This document shows positions 3,266-18,800 of a stretch of DNA of 24,433 nt, piece by piece. Positions within the stretch are counted from its first letter, which is position 1; each line of letters starts with the position of its first letter. The translations under genes and the position numbers were made by a program. The notes under the pieces are model-generated. The model searched no databases, was not told where the DNA came from, and saw only the letters and a program-made list of their open reading frames with translations. This DNA is from a virus, in the IMG/VR virus record IMGVR_UViG_3300025508_000147, positions 1 through 24,433 of that record, one strand, 5' to 3'.

Positions 3266-3536
3266 AGACATAAAGAAAGAACGAGCCCATAAAGAAGATG
3301 GCACGTTTCAGGCAGACAATCCTGATACACCAGATCAAAATGAGGCTTTTAAACCTGTAAGGTTTTACCTTATGCAGGACACCCTTGCTAATACTATCTT
3401 GCAAAAACTAGCAACCTTACCTTACGGTGAAGTTAGTGAAATGCTTAACAGTGTTAGAGCTATGCAACATGTGTTAGTAGACCCAACTACTAAAAAAGTA
3501 GTGGATCAAGCTGTTGCAAAACCCACCAAAAAATAG
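3258..3536 (+). CDS. Hypothetical small phage protein
   Basis: A 92-residue protein starting at ATG 3258 with AAGGA (3246-3250) 7 nt upstream; its start overlaps the preceding stop by 8 nt. The first 30 residues are charged and probably disordered (KKERAHKEDG, DNPDTPDQ). The second part (about 34-75) reads as two helices, with QDTLANTILQKLATLPYGEV followed by SEMLNSVRAMQHV. The 'xLxNxIxxxLxxxPYxEV' spacing recurs in short proteins of marine phages, where it has no assigned function. The tail is lysine-rich (KPTKK) and houses the TTG start of the next gene. Co-expression with the nucleases suggests a role around DNA metabolism, but nothing in the residues shows an active site. Confidence 0.85.
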   Translation: MTEDIKKERAHKEDGTFQADNPDTPDQNEAFKPVRFYLMQDTLANTILQKLATLPYGEVSEMLNSVRAMQHVLVDPTTKKVVDQAVAKPTKK

Positions 3537-3744
3537 AGTAGTCCTTGCTCAACTGACTGTAGAATTAAGTCAAGATGGTAAAGTGTATCTAGAGAATCAA
3601 ACTCTTGATCCTAAGCTTTTTAGACAAGCGATGGATGATTGGAATGATACTTATGAAGGTACACTTACCTTAACTAACCTACTACATGAACTAAAACGTG
3701 AAATGGAGCTTTTACAAGAGAAAATACCTAGTTTTCTTAGGTAA
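3514..3744 (+). CDS. Hypothetical small protein, last gene of the plus-strand operon
   Basis: A 76-residue protein ending at TAA 3742-3744. No ATG is usable: the first in-frame one is at methionine 40, inside QAMDDW. TTG at 3514 is therefore the likeliest start, with a modest TGGA (3502-3505) 8 nt in front. Translational coupling to the overlapping upstream gene (23 nt) could make up for the weak site. The residues suggest a short beta hairpin (LTVELSQDGKVYLENQTL) and two helices (PKLFRQAMDDWNDTYEG; LTNLLHELKREMELLQEKI), the latter coiled-coil-like. No family is recognised. The terminator hairpin follows about 75 nt after the stop. Confidence 0.75.
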   Translation: MQNPPKNRVVLAQLTVELSQDGKVYLENQTLDPKLFRQAMDDWNDTYEGTLTLTNLLHELKREMELLQEKIPSFLR

Positions 3745-3771
3745 TGCTCTGTAACGCCCACACAAGCTTAT

Positions 3772-3791
3772 ACAACAAAATGTGTTGTTTT
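3772..3791 (+). terminator. Weak hairpin with short T run
   Basis: ACAACA (3772-3777) and TGTTGT (3783-3788) can pair around a 5-nt loop and are followed by a TTTT run (3788-3791). All stem pairs but two are A-T, so it is a poor terminator by itself. It may assist the stronger structure at 3818-3855. Confidence 0.3.
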
Positions 3792-3817
3792 GGTATGTCT
3801 ACTATTAGGTGTGTACT

Positions 3818-3855
3818 AAAAGGGGCTTAGAAACGATTCTGAGGAACTTTTTTTT
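3818..3855. terminator. Intrinsic terminator for the plus operon, probably two-way
   Basis: CTTAGAA (3826-3832) pairs with TTCTGAG (3837-3843) around loop ACGA, with one G-U pair on the plus-strand RNA. AAAAG (3818-3822) pairs with CTTTT (3847-3851) outside a symmetrical 3 x 3 internal loop. Eight T follow (3848-3855). It stands 73 nt after the last plus-strand stop. On the minus strand the same arms fold and end in a CTTTT run, so it could also stop transcripts from the right. The eight A on that strand contain the stop codon of the micro-ORF at 3854-3919. Confidence 0.6.
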
Positions 3856-3919
3856 ACAGAACCTGTGTTAAACAAATAATTATTACTGCATATGATGCTA
3901 AGTGCAAAATATCTTCCAT
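3854..3919 (-). CDS. Micro-ORF for a 21-residue hydrophobic membrane-type peptide
   Basis: ATG at 3919-3917 is preceded by AGGAG (3929-3925) at 5 nt spacing, the same 'AGGAGAT' style used by the neighbouring minus-strand genes. Twenty-one codons follow up to TAA at 3856-3854. The peptide starts MEDILHLASYA, continues VIIICLTQVL, and so consists of a short acidic start and one probable membrane span with a single cysteine. It has its own promoter 30-60 nt upstream and a terminator at its stop codon. No family can be assigned at this length. Options are a small lysis-timing or holin-like peptide, a peptide acting on the host membrane, or an accidental ORF. The close match of promoter, ribosome site, frame and terminator argues for a real gene. 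Confidence 0.5.
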   Translation of the reverse strand: MEDILHLASYAVIIICLTQVL

Positions 3920-3944
3920 CTTATCTCCTACATATGGAAAGGGT

Positions 3945-3960
3945 TACTATAATTATAGTA
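3945..3960. promoter_or_regulatory. 16-bp perfect palindrome over promoter start region (possible operator)
   Basis: TACTATAATTATAGTA reads the same on both strands. It overlaps the -10 element (3957-3962) and the expected start point (near 3950) of the minus-strand promoter, which is where a dimeric repressor would bind. Being A/T-only at its centre, such a palindrome could also arise by chance. Confidence 0.35.
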
Positions 3961-3985
3961 TACACCTCAGATGCACATTTGTCCA
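3957..3985 (-). promoter_or_regulatory. sigma70-type promoter for the micro-ORF
   Basis: On the minus strand, TGGACA (3985-3980, 5 of 6 to TTGACA), a 17-bp spacer and TATACT (3962-3957, 5 of 6 to TATAAT) make a near-consensus promoter. A second TATAAT lies just downstream (3957-3952). The expected start near 3950 gives a 30-nt leader with the AGGAG of the micro-ORF. It sits after the last long late gene, so the micro-ORF could be transcribed independently of the late operon. Confidence 0.55.
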
Positions 3986-4023
3986 ATCAATAGTTGTGAT
4001 AAGAAGTATTTATATTGTAAATA

Positions 4024-4290
4024 TTAGTTAGCTAACGGATTGTCGTTGTTGCCTACCTTGTCTACCCTACTCTCAGTTCTATCCATTCTGTTCTCAAGAT
4101 TGTCTACTCTTGTAGTTAAAGTTGCTACAGATTCTTTTACTGGATTAAGATTAACACTTTTTTTAGTCTTAGCTTCTATTTGATCTAAGCGTAGGTTAAA
4201 CTGCCCCCATGTGTAGAAACCTCCTCCGATTGCAGTGATGACCCCCACAATGGTGATGTACTGCTGAAGCTTTGGTAATATGTTTTTCAT
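4024..4290 (-). CDS. Small protein with N-terminal membrane helix and coiled coil (spanin-like topology)
   Basis: An 88-residue protein starting at ATG 4290 with AAGGAG (4302-4297) 6 nt upstream. Residues about 10-30 (QYITIVGVITAIGGGFYTW) form one membrane span. The rest is hydrophilic with heptad-like spacing (RLDQIEAK; VATLTTRVDNLENRMDRTES) and suggests a coiled coil ending in a polar tail. An N-terminal anchor followed by a periplasmic coiled coil is how inner-membrane spanins (Rz type) are built. The position behind a two-span holin candidate supports this, but the protein is short and no lipoprotein partner with a lipobox is seen. A haemolysin XhlA-like or structural membrane role is possible. 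It is the last substantial gene of the late operon. Confidence 0.5.
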   Translation of the reverse strand: MKNILPKLQQYITIVGVITAIGGGFYTWGQFNLRLDQIEAKTKKSVNLNPVKESVATLTTRVDNLENRMDRTESRVDKVGNNDNPLAN

Positions 4291-4305: not shown

Positions 4306-4401
4306 TTACCAGTGTCTAAGGACACCTGCTATTATAAAAAAACAAGTAAGCCATCCTAAGACTCTATCTGTTTTTAATATAAATCTTTTTATTAAATACA
4401 T
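4306..4401 (-). CDS. 31-residue single-span membrane peptide
   Basis: I start this gene at the ATG at 4401-4399, which shares one base with the stop of the preceding gene (TAATG) and has AGGA about 8 nt upstream in that gene's last codons. Longer in-frame starts would lie fully inside the preceding membrane protein gene and have no ribosome site. The peptide begins with a basic segment (MYLIKRFILKTDR) followed by a hydrophobic stretch, VLGWLTCFFIIAGVL, and ends RHW. A short membrane peptide next to a holin-like gene could be a holin regulator. The cysteine is not in a lipobox (T, not A/G/S, precedes it), so an outer-membrane lipoprotein is unlikely. Confidence 0.55.
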   Translation of the reverse strand: MYLIKRFILKTDRVLGWLTCFFIIAGVLRHW

Positions 4402-4643
4402 TATTTTTTTCCTACATAAAGACCAAACCAAGCTGCACCTGCACCCACAATAACAGATACAAAAGCTGATTGTGAATTGGTGGGGTCTGGTAAAGTCATA
4501 AACCACATAGACGTTTTATAAAACATCAACCCATAAAGGCTTATCAAAAGTCTAGGAAAGACCCTCCACTTATCAAAACCTTCAGCATTATTGTACCATG
4601 ACTTCTTAGGTACTTCTACTATCTTTATCTCTGGTTCACTCAT
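4401..4643 (-). CDS. Two-span membrane protein, probable holin
   Basis: An 80-residue protein with ATG at 4643 and AGGAG (4653-4649) 5 nt upstream; that ribosome site is formed by the last codons of the previous gene. After a charged start (MSEPEIKIVEVPKKSW) come two hydrophobic segments: FPRLLISLYGLMFYKTSMWF at about 27-46, and SAFVSVIVGAGAAWFGLYVG at about 59-78. They are joined by a short polar loop (LPDPTNSQ), and the protein ends in KK. Two spans with a small, charged N terminus and a positive end match class II holins. Closely similar small proteins are frequent near the end of late operons in marine phages. Function is inferred from topology and position. No endolysin lies next to it in this window. 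Confidence 0.55.
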   Translation of the reverse strand: MSEPEIKIVEVPKKSWYNNAEGFDKWRVFPRLLISLYGLMFYKTSMWFMTLPDPTNSQSAFVSVIVGAGAAWFGLYVGKK

Positions 4644-4644
4644 A

Positions 4645-6714
4645 CTATCTCCTATCTATAAAAATGCCTACAGGCTGTTGACCCATAATGCTATACAAAG
4701 TATCCATACTGTCAGATACCATATTACCATACCCTGCATTATCTCCTAGAGTTGCACTTGCATATATAGCAGTAGGTGCGTACCAGTTTGTTTGGTCTGT
4801 TATGTTAGCAGTGGTATAATCAGAGAAGTTGGGTACGTAGTTCATGTAGGCAATCAATGTAGATTGTCCTTGTGAATCATATTGTCCAGACTCCTCTTGT
4901 TGTGTTTGTGATGACTCTTGCTGTGCTCTTATGTTGTTAGCTACAATTTCTTCTGCTATCTGTTCTGCTTCAGATGATGTAACCATAGTGCTTGTAACAC
5001 TTTCTATTTGGTTATCCATAGTAGTAACTTGTACCTCAGCTATTACCATAGATGGTGTATTATCCATTGTAGGCATTGGTAGTATTTCTATAGATTGTAA
5101 AACGTTGTTTGTTTGTACTTGTGCAGAAGATATTTGAGCCGAAATACTAGGAGAATTAGACACTGAAGTAGCCCCTGAGCTGCTTGAAACAGCAGAAGTA
5201 GTAGTACTGGCAACACTAGAAGAGCCTGAGACACCATTATTTGTAGTGCTACCACCAGTAGATGACCCTGAAATACTAATACTTGTAGTACTATTAGCAA
5301 TAGAGTTGCTTACTATAGAGTCTGTAGAGTTAACTACAATTAAATTTCTACGCCTATTTCTTCGTTCAGATCGTTCAGGTTTATCTCCTGGCTCCTCAAC
5401 AAGTTCTTCGCTAATCTCCTCTTCCTCAAACTCTTCTTCATATTCTTCTTCAGACTCTTCTTCCGTTTCTCCAAGTTCTTCTGTCTCCTCGTTTTCTTCT
5501 ACTATCTCTTCTTCAAAGTCTTCAAACTGTTCTTCAAACTGTTCTCTATCCATTTCGTCTTCAAAATCAAAGTGTTCATCCATATGTTGAGCAAACTCTA
5601 CAAACTCTTCCTCGGTTAATCTTATCTCAGGTAGAGTATCTAAAGGTATCACATCTATTTCTAAATCAAAATCTATAAAAGTTAATGGTCCTTCTTCGTA
5701 ATCACCCAGAGTAGCATCCCCACTAAAAGGTATATCATCAATACTGAAATTGTCTTCATGTTCTATTACATCCCTGCTATCATATTCAATATAACTAACC
5801 CCACTAAAATCATCGTGGAAGTCACCAGTATCACTCCTGCCATCAGTAATCGTAGAAAAAACAAGTGTTCCTGTATAAATTTCTTCATCATTAAAACCAT
5901 AAAACTCCTCCTCATTATCGTAGCCTAACAACATAGCTTCAGATACACCTGAACCCTGCATATAGTATTCTTCGTCATCAAAAGTATCTTCAAAAGTATT
6001 TGTTAAATCATAGACACCACAAAGATCACTAAAGTCAGAATCTATTAAACATTGAGAAGATAAGTTAGTAAAAGATTCATCTATTGCTGTACTAATAGAC
6101 CAATCATCTGTTCTGTTAAACGTTGTTGAATTGTTGTCTTCATATCTCAGGTAAGTTACAGCTTCGTTATTGCCTTGTAAACCTATAGTTATGTCGTGGT
6201 TTGATACATTTATCTTATCATATCTAAACTCTATAGCATTTGTAGTTTCATACAAGATAGCTTCAAAAGAACTTAGATTGTTATTTCTATATTCATTAAC
6301 GTTATACCAACCTGCAACCCAATACCTAGAACCCACATCACCGTAAGTGCCTACGTAAGGGGAACCATTGTTATTGTTCTTGTCAATAAAATCAGACCAC
6401 AAAGCAAATATGGTAAAATCGAAACCAGACGCAGGTAAAGTTTCAGACAAATAGTTTCTTTGATTGTATACATTAAAGTTAGGATTAAAAGTTATAAAGC
6501 CATTCATAGCTACTTTAGCTTGACTATATGTATTACCATAGTAAGTAAAGTCAAAGCCTAAGTTTTGTGTAGGAGATAAAGCATCGTCTGCTAGGTTTAG
6601 GGCAGTACCAGTATTTTGTATATTAAGAAGGGGGTCAGTGCCTACAGTAAATGTAGGTGTGTTTGCGTATACGGTACTACCCAGTAGGAAGATTATTGTT
6701 AGGAGTTTGTACAT
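4645..6714 (-). CDS. Exported-type protein with nidogen-like domain and acidic block
   Basis: A 689-residue protein with a clear signal peptide (KLLTIIFLLGSTVYA, likely cut after A17). Residues about 30-190 look like a nidogen-type (NIDO) domain: FDFTYYGNTYSQAKVAMNGF, LPASGFDFTIFALWSDF, YWVAGWYNV, FEAILYETTNAIEFRY and ITIGLQG in family order. Residues 222 and 232 are a possible disulfide pair. An acidic region (about 240-441) culminates in a dense Glu block at 367-441. Then follow a basic patch (PERSERRNRRRN, 447-458), a Ser/Thr-rich stretch (462-535), a helix (580-600) and a C-terminal region containing YMNYVPNFSDY and MGQQPVGIFIDRR. The start overlaps the upstream gene by 16 nt and has only a weak ribosome site, so coupling is likely. 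It could be a surface or host-interaction protein released at lysis or a virion component; I cannot tell which. Confidence 0.65.
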   Translation of the reverse strand: MYKLLTIIFLLGSTVYANTPTFTVGTDPLLNIQNTGTALNLADDALSPTQNLGFDFTYYGNTYSQAKVAMNGFITFNPNFNVYNQRNYLSETLPASGFDFTIFALWSDFIDKNNNNGSPYVGTYGDVGSRYWVAGWYNVNEYRNNNLSSFEAILYETTNAIEFRYDKINVSNHDITIGLQGNNEAVTYLRYEDNNSTTFNRTDDWSISTAIDESFTNLSSQCLIDSDFSDLCGVYDLTNTFEDTFDDEEYYMQGSGVSEAMLLGYDNEEEFYGFNDEEIYTGTLVFSTITDGRSDTGDFHDDFSGVSYIEYDSRDVIEHEDNFSIDDIPFSGDATLGDYEEGPLTFIDFDLEIDVIPLDTLPEIRLTEEEFVEFAQHMDEHFDFEDEMDREQFEEQFEDFEEEIVEENEETEELGETEEESEEEYEEEFEEEEISEELVEEPGDKPERSERRNRRRNLIVVNSTDSIVSNSIANSTTSISISGSSTGGSTTNNGVSGSSSVASTTTSAVSSSSGATSVSNSPSISAQISSAQVQTNNVLQSIEILPMPTMDNTPSMVIAEVQVTTMDNQIESVTSTMVTSSEAEQIAEEIVANNIRAQQESSQTQQEESGQYDSQGQSTLIAYMNYVPNFSDYTTANITDQTNWYAPTAIYASATLGDNAGYGNMVSDSMDTLYSIMGQQPVGIFIDRR

Positions 6715-7736
6715 ATCTTATGCGTAGGATATTTTTTACAGAACTTTGGTTTAGTGTAGGCTTTAAATTCATGGGAAGCTTGTTCTTTCTTTACTTGATC
6801 CCAGTCTGGTCTGTCTTCTTGGTTTTCATTCCAAGCTACTTGTGCTTCTGCACCTATCAAACCATTGTAAGGACAAGGAGTGCCTGCCATTTTCATAGCT
6901 CTGTGCACTTTACCTGTGCTTTCGCCACATAACAAAGCAACTGCTGCTACTTTCATTCCCATATCGTAAAGACCTTTGCTGAGTTTTAAGGTTTCGCAGT
7001 TCTCATCTCGTACACTTCTACCTGTAGATATACCAAAGAACTGAGTTTGGACTGCCGAACTAGCTCCTGTGGTGCACAAGTCTTGACTATATGACATTAT
7101 GGAGGGGGCTATAGCGGATGGAGGAGCAGTTTTAATTCTTTGTGTTACCTTCTGCGTAGAGTCGTTTCTAGATACGCTTGTGTTATTATTATTAGAAGTA
7201 CTTGTATTAATATTAGTATTAGAGCTATTATTAGTGTTTTTAGTATCTATACTAGAAGTAGTATTACTAATATTAGTATTAGTGCTTTTATTAATATTAC
7301 TAGAAGTATTTGTATTGGTATTATTTGATGTGCTATTGTTAGTACTTAAATTTGTATTAGTATTAGTATTTGTGTTTGTACCTACAGAAGTAATGGTACT
7401 ATCATTAGTTACGTTTTGAGTTTGTGTTATATTTGATGTTACATTAGACGTACTATTAGTGGTATTTATATTAGTATTATTATTAGTATTGGTAGCATTT
7501 GTCGTTTGATTTATCGTAGTTGTATTTACGTTATTATTGTTATTAGTATTAATATTAGTATTTGTTGCAGTGCTGTTTACAGTATTGTTATTAGTATTAG
7601 TGTTGGTATTGTTTGAGGTCACGGTACTAGTGCTAGTAGTAGTGTTCGTTATGTTACTGTCCTCCGCTAGTAGCAAGCTGCTAACAGATATTAATGCTAC
7701 TCCTATGATAGCAAATTCTTGTAGGTTTTTAATCAC
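6699..7736 (-). CDS. Exported-type Asn/Thr-repeat protein with six-cysteine C-terminal domain
   Basis: A 345-residue protein. It starts with GTG (7736-7734), supported by AGGAG (7747-7743) 6 nt upstream. Residues 1-24 form a signal peptide (FAIIGVALISVSSLLLA). Residues about 27-195 are almost only Asn, Thr, Ser, Ile and Val (NTNTNTN-type runs). Residues 200-345 are a conserved-looking domain: APPSAIAPSIMSYSQDLC, FGISTGRSVRDENCETLKLSK, LYDMGMKVAAVALLC and AGTPCPYNGLIG, with cysteines at 221, 247, 270, 288, 333 and 342. I recall such 'PSIMSYSQDLC...GRSVRDENCE' domains in many marine phages, where they have no known function. Six cysteines plus a signal peptide suggest a disulfide-bonded product in the periplasm or outside the cell. 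The gene overlaps the nidogen-like gene, hinting at joint action. Confidence 0.65.
   Translation of the reverse strand: MIKNLQEFAIIGVALISVSSLLLAEDSNITNTTTSTSTVTSNNTNTNTNNNTVNSTATNTNINTNNNNNVNTTTINQTTNATNTNNNTNINTTNSTSNVTSNITQTQNVTNDSTITSVGTNTNTNTNTNLSTNNSTSNNTNTNTSSNINKSTNTNISNTTSSIDTKNTNNSSNTNINTSTSNNNNTSVSRNDSTQKVTQRIKTAPPSAIAPSIMSYSQDLCTTGASSAVQTQFFGISTGRSVRDENCETLKLSKGLYDMGMKVAAVALLCGESTGKVHRAMKMAGTPCPYNGLIGAEAQVAWNENQEDRPDWDQVKKEQASHEFKAYTKPKFCKKYPTHKICTNS
7154..7658 (-). repeat. In-frame AAT/ACT low-complexity tract
   Basis: About 500 bp made largely of alternating AAT and ACT codons (read on the plus strand as TTAGTATTAGTATT runs), encoding Asn-Thr repeats. Copies are imperfect, with interspersed Ser, Ile and Val codons. 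Gains or losses of multiples of 6 bp would keep the frame. Confidence 0.75.
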
Positions 7737-15659: not shown

Positions 15660-18600
15660 TTATAATCCTTTTAACCAATTCCATATAGTAGTACCGAATC
15701 TGTCTTTTATTTCTGTTCTATTTTGATGATTAAACAATCTTTCATCTACATCTCCAGCTAAACCTATTTTAGCTATTTCGTGCATGTATTGATCTTTTGC
15801 CATACTTTTACTATTTATCCAGTTAGCTTCATCTCTGTAAGCTTGCCATACTTTATTTAATGAGTTCTGATTTATTTGTAATAAGCTCATTGCATTAAGT
15901 CTATTAGCTTCATTTTGGTTAGTAGTGTTTATAGTATTTAAATCTCTTCTCCACTTTGCATTAGATTGATTAATTTGACTTGTCATTGTAGCATTAAATT
16001 TATCTCTAGTATCTACTAGTGAAGTATTAAATCTTGCTTGAGCATTAGTTTCATTTACATTAAATTGCCTCATAGCAGCTACTCTATTTGAATTTTGGTT
16101 TCTAACAGTAGCACCTAACTGACTAAAAAATTGTTCCATTTGATTTTCAGACTGTGCATTAAATTGTTTTCTAGCATTATCTGCAGCAGCATCAGAAAAT
16201 AGAGCTTGTGTTTTAGCTTGGTATTGTAATACTTCACCCTGTTGTTTGTTAGTAAGGTTAGCCATATCTAACTGTAAAAACGATTGAGCATTTAATACTT
16301 CAGCCTGTTGTCTATTATTAAGATTAGTCATGTCCATATTTGCGTAGGTAGCAGCATTTGTAAGTGCAGCTTTCATGTCAGAATCTAAATTAGTTAAAGT
16401 CATGTTTTCCATAATTTTAGCATTGTTTAAATTACGTTGCTGTTGTTCTGTAAATTCTATATTATTTACTTCAGCTACTCTAGCACCATTTAATACAGCT
16501 CTTTGTTGATCTCCTGTTAACTCTTGACCCATTAATGCAGAGTCTATCTGGGCTTGAGCTAAATTTCTTTGTTGTTTATTAGATAGATTACCCATAGTAA
16601 CTTGCATATTATTTATGGAATCTTGCATAATTCCTTGCTGTTCATTACTAAGATTTAAATTTTGTATTTCAGAATACCTAGCAGCATTAGCTACTGCTTT
16701 TTGTTGATCAAAACTTAACTCTCTTTCTTTTAAGGAAGACCTTAACTGTGCATTAGCTACAGCTACTTGTTGTAAATTAGAAAGACTTTGAGATTGTAAT
16801 TTAAAACCATTAGTAGAATTTTGTAAATTTGTTTGTTGACTAGCACTTAAATTAGCTAAACCAATATTCATAGAGTTTGCAGCATTAGCTAAAGCTACTT
16901 GTTGTTTATTATTTAAGTTTGTTAAATTTATTTCTTTAAAGATTTGTGCATCTTGTGCAGCTACTGGAATAGATGATTCCATTGCAGCTTGCATAATTGC
17001 AGCACCTGCCATAGAGCTTGCAGATAAACCTCTAGCAGCCATTTGTGCTTCGGCATTTCTTATTGCTCCTGCAGCATAAGGAGGTGTTTTACCATCAGCA
17101 AACTGTGCCATAAGGTTTGTTAATTGTCCTTGAACAGTAGCCTCTACAGGTACTTCAGATATAGCTTGTTGTTGAGCTGTAGCAAAAGCACTAACCTCTG
17201 GATCATCGCTAAACTGTGCTAACTCCATAGTAGCTTCTTGAGTTTTTTCGTACTGAAATTCTTTTTCTGCTTGTTGTGCTTCTCTAGGGTTTATTTCAGG
17301 AATAGTATCGCCTACTTCCATTTGTCTATCAGCAGCATTTATTTTTTCATTAAATCCTGCAGTATCTATACCTACAACAGGAGTACCTCTTCTATCTACC
17401 TTATCTATTTCTTCGGCTAATGCTCCTTCTGATTTTATTACTTCTATACTTTCAGGGTCTGGTTTTATTGCTTTTAACTTTTCATCAGTTATAGTAGCAT
17501 TTGCACTTACGGTACTTTCTTCGCCTACAGCCTCTTGACTAAGAGCATCTGTTGCTTGTGCTGCAAGGGCTAGTGCATTTACTTTTTGTTCAGAAGCTAC
17601 TAGAGAATCTACTGTACTAGCACTAGCTTCAGTAGGAACTTGAGCTTGTAAATCTGCATCGGAAGCTGTTGTAGTAGCAGCCGAAGGCGTTCCTGTAAGT
17701 TGTGTACCTTCAGTAGGTACTAACTCACCTTCTAAAACTTTACCAGCAGTAGGTGTAACTGTACCTCCAGTAGGTAATTGAGTGCCTCCTGGAGTGAGTC
17801 CTGAATATTTATCCATTTGGTTAATAGCATCGCCATATCTTTGTTCTAAAAGACCACCTGTTCCAGTATTAGTATTAGTGGTAGTTCCAGTTTCTCTTTT
17901 TGTTCCAGTTATTTCAGATGTTCCATCACTATAAAACACAGTAAAAGTACCATCGCCATTGTCTATAGTGTTTACAACTGTTTTTGTTTTTGTTCCAGTT
18001 ATTTCAGATGTTCCGTCACTGTAAGTAATAGTAGAAGTACCGTCACCATGAGATACTATGCTTACTATAGTTTTTTCTGGAGTGTCACCTGTATCTCCTC
18101 CAGTTGAACCATCTACAGTATCAGTACCAGTTGAACCATCTACAGTATCAGTACTAGTTGAACCATCAATAGTATCAGTACTAGTTGAACCATCTACAGT
18201 ATCAGTACTAGTTGAACCATCTACAGTATCAGTACCTGTAGCTCCAGTTATAGTTGATGTTCCTCCAGTTATAGTATCAGTACCTGTAGCTCCAGATGTA
18301 GCAGCAGCTATTTGTTCGTTAAGAGTGTCCATGTTAAGAAAGCCACCACCAGGAAGTTTAATGGTGCCTGTGTAGTTACTTAAAATATTACCTGCATTAG
18401 TTGTAGCACCAGTTGTAGCACCAGTTGTAGCACCAGTTGTAGCACCAGTTGTAGCACCAGTTGTAGCACCAGTTGTAGCACCAGTTGTAGCACCAGTTGT
18501 AGCACCAGTACCTGTAATGCCTAAACTTGACAAATCTGGAACAAAAGAACCACTTAACCCTGAAAGATTTACATTTCCTAAACCTGCAAGACTACTAGGT

Positions 18601-18800
18601 ATACTAGGTGGAGGTGGAGTAAGAGGTGCAGTATTTGCAGGTGGAGGTGAAGGTGGAGGTGCAGATGTATTAGTATTTTGATACTGCTTAACCATATCTC
18701 CTATCTGAGATTGAGTCATACCACCAAGAAACATGTTTTGCCTAACTAAGGCTCCTGCTCTCATCTGTTTTTCTTTTTTTGTCAACGGTTTCTTTGGCAT
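15660..18800 (-). CDS. Large repeat-rich virion protein with 22-residue helical repeats
   Basis: A 1046-residue protein; ATG at 18800 has AGGAAAGAG just upstream. Order of regions: a lysine-rich start and a Pro-rich linker (about 45-75); nine 4-residue Ala-Thr-Thr-Gly units (about 98-134); five 9-residue DGST/TDTV units (about 188-233); two 30-residue beta-hairpin-like copies with YSDGTSEITGTK (about 240-300); an Ala/Glu-rich region; a block, RNAEAQMAARGLSASSMAGA, near 590 that I associate with marine phage structural proteins; eleven consecutive 22-residue repeats (628-869) with consensus NLSxxQQxxxxNA; and a helical Asn/Gln-rich tail ending WNWLKGL. The product is predicted to be long and fibrous. 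It follows the fibre genes and precedes internal virion genes. A tail-tube, neck-appendage or internal core component are all possible. Confidence 0.55.
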   Translation of the reverse strand: MPKKPLTKKEKQMRAGALVRQNMFLGGMTQSQIGDMVKQYQNTNTSAPPPSPPPANTAPLTPPPPSIPSSLAGLGNVNLSGLSGSFVPDLSSLGITGTGATTGATTGATTGATTGATTGATTGATTGATTGATTNAGNILSNYTGTIKLPGGGFLNMDTLNEQIAAATSGATGTDTITGGTSTITGATGTDTVDGSTSTDTVDGSTSTDTIDGSTSTDTVDGSTGTDTVDGSTGGDTGDTPEKTIVSIVSHGDGTSTITYSDGTSEITGTKTKTVVNTIDNGDGTFTVFYSDGTSEITGTKRETGTTTNTNTGTGGLLEQRYGDAINQMDKYSGLTPGGTQLPTGGTVTPTAGKVLEGELVPTEGTQLTGTPSAATTTASDADLQAQVPTEASASTVDSLVASEQKVNALALAAQATDALSQEAVGEESTVSANATITDEKLKAIKPDPESIEVIKSEGALAEEIDKVDRRGTPVVGIDTAGFNEKINAADRQMEVGDTIPEINPREAQQAEKEFQYEKTQEATMELAQFSDDPEVSAFATAQQQAISEVPVEATVQGQLTNLMAQFADGKTPPYAAGAIRNAEAQMAARGLSASSMAGAAIMQAAMESSIPVAAQDAQIFKEINLTNLNNKQQVALANAANSMNIGLANLSASQQTNLQNSTNGFKLQSQSLSNLQQVAVANAQLRSSLKERELSFDQQKAVANAARYSEIQNLNLSNEQQGIMQDSINNMQVTMGNLSNKQQRNLAQAQIDSALMGQELTGDQQRAVLNGARVAEVNNIEFTEQQQRNLNNAKIMENMTLTNLDSDMKAALTNAATYANMDMTNLNNRQQAEVLNAQSFLQLDMANLTNKQQGEVLQYQAKTQALFSDAAADNARKQFNAQSENQMEQFFSQLGATVRNQNSNRVAAMRQFNVNETNAQARFNTSLVDTRDKFNATMTSQINQSNAKWRRDLNTINTTNQNEANRLNAMSLLQINQNSLNKVWQAYRDEANWINSKSMAKDQYMHEIAKIGLAGDVDERLFNHQNRTEIKDRFGTTIWNWLKGL
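16194..16919 (-). repeat. Eleven tandem 66-bp (22-residue) repeats, protein-level
   Basis: Codons 628-869 of the 1046-residue gene divide into eleven units of exactly 22 residues without insertions. Examples of unit starts are NLNNKQQVALANA, SLSNLQQVAVANA, ELSFDQQKAVANA, NLSNKQQRNLAQA, ELTGDQQRAVLNG and NLTNKQQGEVLQY. The DNA copies have diverged, so only the spacing and key positions (L2, Q6-Q7, N12-A13) are conserved. Confidence 0.85.
17901..18080 (-). repeat. Two 90-bp direct copies (beta-hairpin units)
   Basis: Two adjacent in-frame copies, 90 bp apart, each encode a NGDGT/HGDGT turn and YSDGTSEITGTK. A 28-bp core (ending in TTATTTCAGATGTTCC on the plus strand) is identical in both, near 17901 and 17991. 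Confidence 0.75.
18103..18237 (-). repeat. Five tandem 27-bp repeats encoding a 9-residue DGST unit
   Basis: GTTGAACC recurs on the plus strand at 18103, 18130, 18157, 18184 and 18211, exactly 27 bp apart. The encoded unit is T-D-T-V/I-D-G-S-T-S/G. Copies are nearly identical. Confidence 0.9.
18401..18508 (-). repeat. Nine identical tandem 12-bp repeats
   Basis: TTGTAGCACCAG (plus strand) is repeated nine times without any change, giving Ala-Thr-Thr-Gly units in the 1046-residue protein. Perfect identity points to recent slippage-type expansion. Confidence 0.95.

Follow-up and report, generated by a model that had tools for sequence, protein, structure and literature searches.

Organization of the locus

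At the junction of two convergent operons, the window of this analysis (the whole stretch of DNA, a virus record of 24,433 bp with a GC content of 35.0%) carries on its minus strand a micro-ORF of 21 codons that is preceded by putative expression signals of its own, in the order dyad, CTATTGATTGGACAAAT block with the -35 element, spacer, -10 element, AGGAG and ORF. The features of the locus are the following:

3514–3744, plus strand: 76-aa gene, the last of the convergent early operon
3818–3855, plus strand: terminator hairpin with U8 of the convergent plus-strand operon; its T run (3848–3855) overlaps the stop codon of the micro-ORF
3854–3919, minus strand: micro-ORF of 21 codons plus stop (ATG...TAA), MEDILHLASYAVIIICLTQVL, GRAVY 1.58, with homologues, omega about 0.28
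3925–3929, minus strand: Shine-Dalgarno sequence AGGAG, 5 nt before the ATG, unchanged in clade A
3934–3941, minus strand: leader arm CTTTCCAT, able to pair with ATGGAAG at the start of the ORF (3919–3913), in clade A only
3957–3962, minus strand: -10 element TATACT (TATAMT in clades A and B, TATAAC in clades C and D)
3980–3985, minus strand: -35 element TGGACA, 17-nt spacer, within the block CTATTGATTGGACAAAT (3993–3977) that is unchanged in clade A
4007–4023, no strand given: AT-rich dyad TATTTA-CAATA-TAAATA upstream of the -35 element, part of the cassette
4024–4290, minus strand: 88-aa late gene, the last of the late operon, with an N-terminal transmembrane segment and a coiled coil; it is always the neighbour on the upstream side of the cassette
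4306–4401, minus strand: second micro-ORF of 31 aa, MYLIKRFILKTDRVLGWLTCFFIIAGVLRHW, with one transmembrane span; its start overlaps the stop of the 80-aa gene (TAATG)
4401–4643, minus strand: 80-aa protein with two hydrophobic spans and a holin-like look

The original prediction, which had been made from the letters of this stretch, described a near-consensus promoter, a 30-nt leader, an AGGAG site and an ORF of 21 codons whose product has a single hydrophobic span, and all of these hold: the sigma-70-type promoter TGGACA-17-TATACT (3985–3980 and 3962–3957) scores 10/12 matches, the leader has about 31 nt, the AGGAG at 3929–3925 stands five bases ahead of the ATG, and the ORF runs from 3919 to 3854. 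Also its claim that such a combination is rare by chance agrees with a scan of the window for a promoter, a Shine-Dalgarno sequence and a hydrophobic ORF of 15–40 codons, in which this unit alone was found, at a chance expectation of 0.03 per Markov-shuffled window, and further with the conservation in relatives that is described below. Every cassette clade retains at least part of the dyad upstream of the promoter (TATTTA-N5-TAAATA), which empty sites lack and which could possibly be an UP element or an operator.

As for the neighbourhood, the 31-aa micro-ORF is conserved in many relatives (with variants such as MEKIKKFIVKTDRFVGWLTCFFIIAGVIRHW) and missing in others. The 80-aa protein has relatives in 355 phage records, mostly of Vibrio phages, but also of phages of Puniceispirillum (the host genus of HMO-2011), Roseobacter and Pelagibacter. 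Elsewhere on the minus strand there are a 345-aa protein dominated by Asn/Thr/Ser low-complexity repeats (6699–7736) and a 1046-aa protein in which TGAT and STDTVDG are repeated in tandem (15660–18800), which could make its length vary among phages.

The phage

The phage exonuclease matches that of Pelagibacter phage HTVC033P (44% aa), genes for a phage endonuclease I and a DUF3310 protein are also present, and the order of these three genes as well as the convergent early/late junction are as in HMO-2011-type phages, with the DNA polymerase lying outside the window, which is a genome fragment. Late proteins that were tried against isolates gave no or only distant matches. It is likely that the phage belongs to an uncultivated part of the HMO-2011-type group, and likely also that it is lytic and infects SAR11. 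In that group, subgroups VII–IX, which are predicted to infect SAR11, have GC contents of 31.9–35.4%, and subgroups IV–X are without lysogeny genes (PMC9038755). The 35.0% GC of the window lies inside that range. A genome scan for the host with the 88-aa protein returned only coiled-coil look-alikes.

Conservation and selection among relatives

Relatives were collected from IMG/VR with the 88-aa neighbour protein as bait and, independently, with two promoter patterns, which together recovered 49 distinct versions of the unit with 27 distinct ORF sequences and 20 peptides. All peptides have 21–22 residues (22 in clade B) and a single hydrophobic span, with Met1 and Cys16 invariant and [QR]19 [VI]20 towards the end. 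Start, stop and frame are retained in 49/49 distinct sequences, a set that was gathered by peptide similarity, which is why frameshifted copies were sought separately; length differs solely by the insertion of one whole codon in clade B. At loci that lack the peptide, no frameshifted or start-less copies were seen, as there the whole unit is missing. The frameshifts and lost start codons that had been named as arguments against the gene were thus not encountered, the unit being either intact or wholly absent, and the expected conservation of start (ATG or GTG), stop, length and hydrophobicity was found together with purifying selection. Codon models gave an omega of about 0.28 (lnL -636.4 versus -653.1 at omega = 1, 2 delta lnL about 33), the best omega lay at 0.2–0.3 in each of three clades run separately, and parsimony changes in clade A fall on codon positions 1/2/3 as 14/3/19. 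At the level of sequence comparison, this establishes that the micro-ORF evolves as protein-coding sequence, and it is almost certain that the 21-codon gene is real.

The promoter is similarly well kept. It was found in the sense direction at a fixed offset in 19/19 variants tested, and it exists in two types that have the correct distance throughout, TGGACA-17-TATAMT in clades A and B and TTGATT-16-TATAAC in clades C and D. Within clade A, spacer and leader vary, while the Shine-Dalgarno sequence, the -35 block and the larger part of the -10 element are constant. When both patterns were run over all of IMG/VR, nearly all of the 65 matches stood ahead of this micro-ORF, the exceptions being an unrelated jumbo-contig sequence, present in six copies, and a contig whose end falls within the ORF. 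It is likely that the micro-gene is expressed from its own promoter. Clade A has in addition an invariant leader arm, CUUUCCAU, that is able to pair with AUGGAAG and leaves the Shine-Dalgarno sequence in the loop, with the AUG predicted to be paired (P 0.86–0.99). Since the energy of this hairpin is not below that of shuffled sequences and the leader fold energy is ordinary, the hairpin is treated here as a lead for clade A only.

Presence, absence and exchange of the cassette

At seven empty sites (L200, L205, L207, L208, L210, L212 and L213), the stop of the 88-aa gene abuts the downstream stretch directly. The most instructive pair is L206, which has the unit, and L207, which lacks it: the 88-aa proteins are identical, the flanks are 95.8% and 93.8% identical, and the gap between the matching flanks is 157 nt in L206 and 5 nt in L207, from which it follows that the accessory micro-gene has been gained or lost as a whole. 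Further presence/absence comparisons at the shared site exist with L014/L207 and others. The clade B cassette is found behind three different alleles of the 88-aa gene (L014, L126 and L202), while its downstream flank is similar in these loci, an indication that recombination has exchanged it. On the tree of the 88-aa protein, presence and absence take about seven changes (a rough figure, as there are few columns), and the starred branches force at least five. As far as sequences tell, these comparisons establish that the unit is optional and is inherited as a block, flanked on one side by the end of the late operon and on the other by the shared terminator of the early operon that converges on it. 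In the part of the convergent junction that was checked, the isolates HTVC033P, HMO-2011, CRP-212 and CRP-1 have no such ORF, and in HTVC104P the flanking genes overlap at the junction.

The terminator at the stop codon

One claim of the original prediction, a dedicated terminator at the stop codon of the ORF, had to be given up, because the hairpin and its U8 face the plus strand and end the convergent operon. On that strand, the stem CTTAGAA-ACGA-TTCTGAG is followed by GAAC and eight T's (-8.8 kcal/mol), and the full hairpin reads AAAAG GGG CTTAGAA ACGA TTCTGAG GAA CTTTT, then TTTT. Read on the minus strand, the U-G pair of the stem turns into a C-A mismatch, and there are only four T's, some distance off. 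In clade A, it is the plus-strand hairpin that is the strong version, whereas clade B and its empty site L207 have a small minus-strand hairpin, GCTC-ATACA-GAGC-TTTT(T), downstream. Phages without the micro-gene still carry terminator-like hairpins at the junction. A terminator belonging to the micro-gene itself was therefore rejected: the strong hairpin serves the opposite strand, and related hairpins outlast the absence of the cassette. As empty sites keep the sequence that follows the position of the cassette, the terminator is part of the site and not of the micro-gene. Because the antisense side of the ORF end bears the terminator of the early operon, conservation of the last codons could partly serve that terminator.

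At 3755–3790 on the plus strand, there are another conserved hairpin, ACAACA-N5-TGTTGT, which in some relatives is ACAGCA/TGCTGT and hence changed on both sides, and the conserved motif AGAAGCTCATACA; both are present with or without the cassette.

Possible functions of the peptide

The peptides of this family are hydrophobic (GRAVY 1.5–2.0) apart from a polar, in many cases acidic, beginning and one polar residue three positions from the end, and it is very likely that they are located in a membrane. One face of the predicted helix gathers positions 9–10 (small), 13 (V/T), 17 (Cys) and 20–21 ([QR][VI]) in alignment numbering, and through this conserved face the helix may pack against a partner or against itself. 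As selection maintains the gene in many relatives while other phages lack it entirely, it probably encodes a tiny optional membrane peptide that is used during infection.

As to what such a peptide might do, one reading is an action in lysis timing, in which the helix, similar to that of an antiholin or a pinholin, would become part of the holin or spanin set of the phage itself and set the lysis clock. The micro-gene directly follows the small membrane genes that end the late operon (80 aa, 31 aa and 88 aa), its constant neighbour, the 88-aa gene, has a sub-threshold Rz-spanin-like PHROG match (E = 0.053), and the polar face with its Cys would permit oligomers. However, the micro-gene is not part of the late operon but has a promoter to itself, many phages possess the 88-aa gene but not the micro-gene, in the loci of clades C and D the 80-aa and 31-aa genes do not adjoin it, and no neighbour has been confirmed as a lysis gene, so that a role in lysis is rather unlikely.

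It would also be in line with size and composition that the peptide is a toxin like those of type I systems, of which IbsC (19 aa) and ShoB (26 aa) are single hydrophobic helices, some with a Cys (PMC8309996). Such a peptide would depolarise the inner membrane and be restrained by RNA structure or by antisense transcription from the convergent operon, and in clade A there are both a start codon paired within the leader hairpin and an antisense promoter-like site, TTTACA-16-RATRAT, inside the ORF. These two features are, however, missing from clades B–D, the hairpin is no stronger than shuffled sequences, and the strong plus-strand terminator just outside the ORF shields against antisense read-through. 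Toxicity of this kind therefore appears quite improbable.

Still another view is that the conserved product is the RNA, a short transcript whose part downstream of the ORF would pair as antisense with the early operon and so regulate it. While the promoter is directed into the 3' end of the plus-strand operon, where conserved hairpins lie at 3755–3855, these hairpins exist also without the cassette, and the substitutions follow a codon pattern with the sole indel in the ORF being a whole codon, which makes an RNA function very improbable. A chance ORF with a chance promoter, for which one could cite that short ORFs and AT-rich promoters are common and that the leader fold energy is ordinary, is already refuted by the comparative data, with 20 peptide variants conserved under purifying selection and 0.03 such units expected per window.

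Genes with optional presence and exchange are typically those for host or inter-phage conflict, and it is for this reason that an action on a membrane process of the host or of a competing phage, and not on the lysis of the phage itself, is the reading tentatively preferred here, on the grounds of composition and context. The host RNA polymerase would transcribe the micro-gene independently of the late operon, so that the peptide would be available early, as with a sigma-70-type promoter of its own it need not wait for late transcription. It would then insert as a single inner-membrane helix, and the stripe of small residues, V, Cys and [QR][VI] would pack against itself or against a membrane partner, which might be a host transporter, a respiratory protein or a phage-entry protein, and this packing would alter the support that the cell gives to this phage or its permissiveness towards a competitor. 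Overall, an autonomous accessory micro-gene for an early inner-membrane peptide whose helix packs on a membrane partner appears to be the best explanation and is moderately probable, with the role read from composition and context.

Standard gene callers generally skip genes as short as 21 codons, which is why a gene under selection has stayed unannotated in these marine phages. The empty-site pairs indicate that phages without known lysogeny genes can acquire or lose, as a single block, a gene of 21 codons together with the promoter that belongs to it, and they permit a direct test, as the same genomic background is available with and without the unit. The peptide profile and the promoter signature can be used for finding more such genes.

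Comparison with known systems

Sequence and comparative data support the view that the locus encodes a phage micro-protein not yet catalogued, which has a single hydrophobic span and is preceded by a promoter of its own, and it has no family match in PHROGs or NCBIfam. A tblastn search with the peptide against 50,697 phage records gave no match, as expected for 21 aa, Rfam gave only a sub-threshold match away from the unit, and a tRNA search found none. The work of Fremin et al. 2022 (Cell Rep 39:110984) reportedly described unannotated short phage genes by means of comparative conservation, some of them with a membrane span, and the bare ORF may be listed in that catalogue. Large catalogues of predicted small phage genes do exist, according to the papers that cite them (Fremin et al. 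2022, cited in PMC11364881 and PMC11323111). As far as these accounts describe the small transmembrane families, they are likewise unannotated, conserved and in some cases membrane-spanning, while in the present case there are in addition a promoter, a whole cassette and an empty site.

Antiholins and pinholins are also small transmembrane peptides beside putative lysis genes, but the micro-gene differs from them by its own promoter and by having no family match, and to our knowledge its peptide is shorter than any antiholin. IbsC and ShoB resemble it, by their description, in length, single hydrophobic helix, composition and, in some, a Cys (PMC8309996), yet no antisense RNA gene as in type I toxin-antitoxin systems is conserved across the clades, with the promoter-like antisense site confined to clade A. 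It is possible, if speculative, that the unit is a minimal moron-like element (promoter, ribosome site and 21 codons) that is exchanged among lytic marine phages at the convergent junction, and that its early membrane peptide excludes competitors or retunes a host membrane complex. Like a phage moron, it is an accessory unit with its own promoter motif between two phage operons that is present or absent in close relatives; unlike a moron, it has only 21 codons, occurs in phages for whose group no lysogeny genes are known, and uses the existing terminator of the site in place of one of its own.
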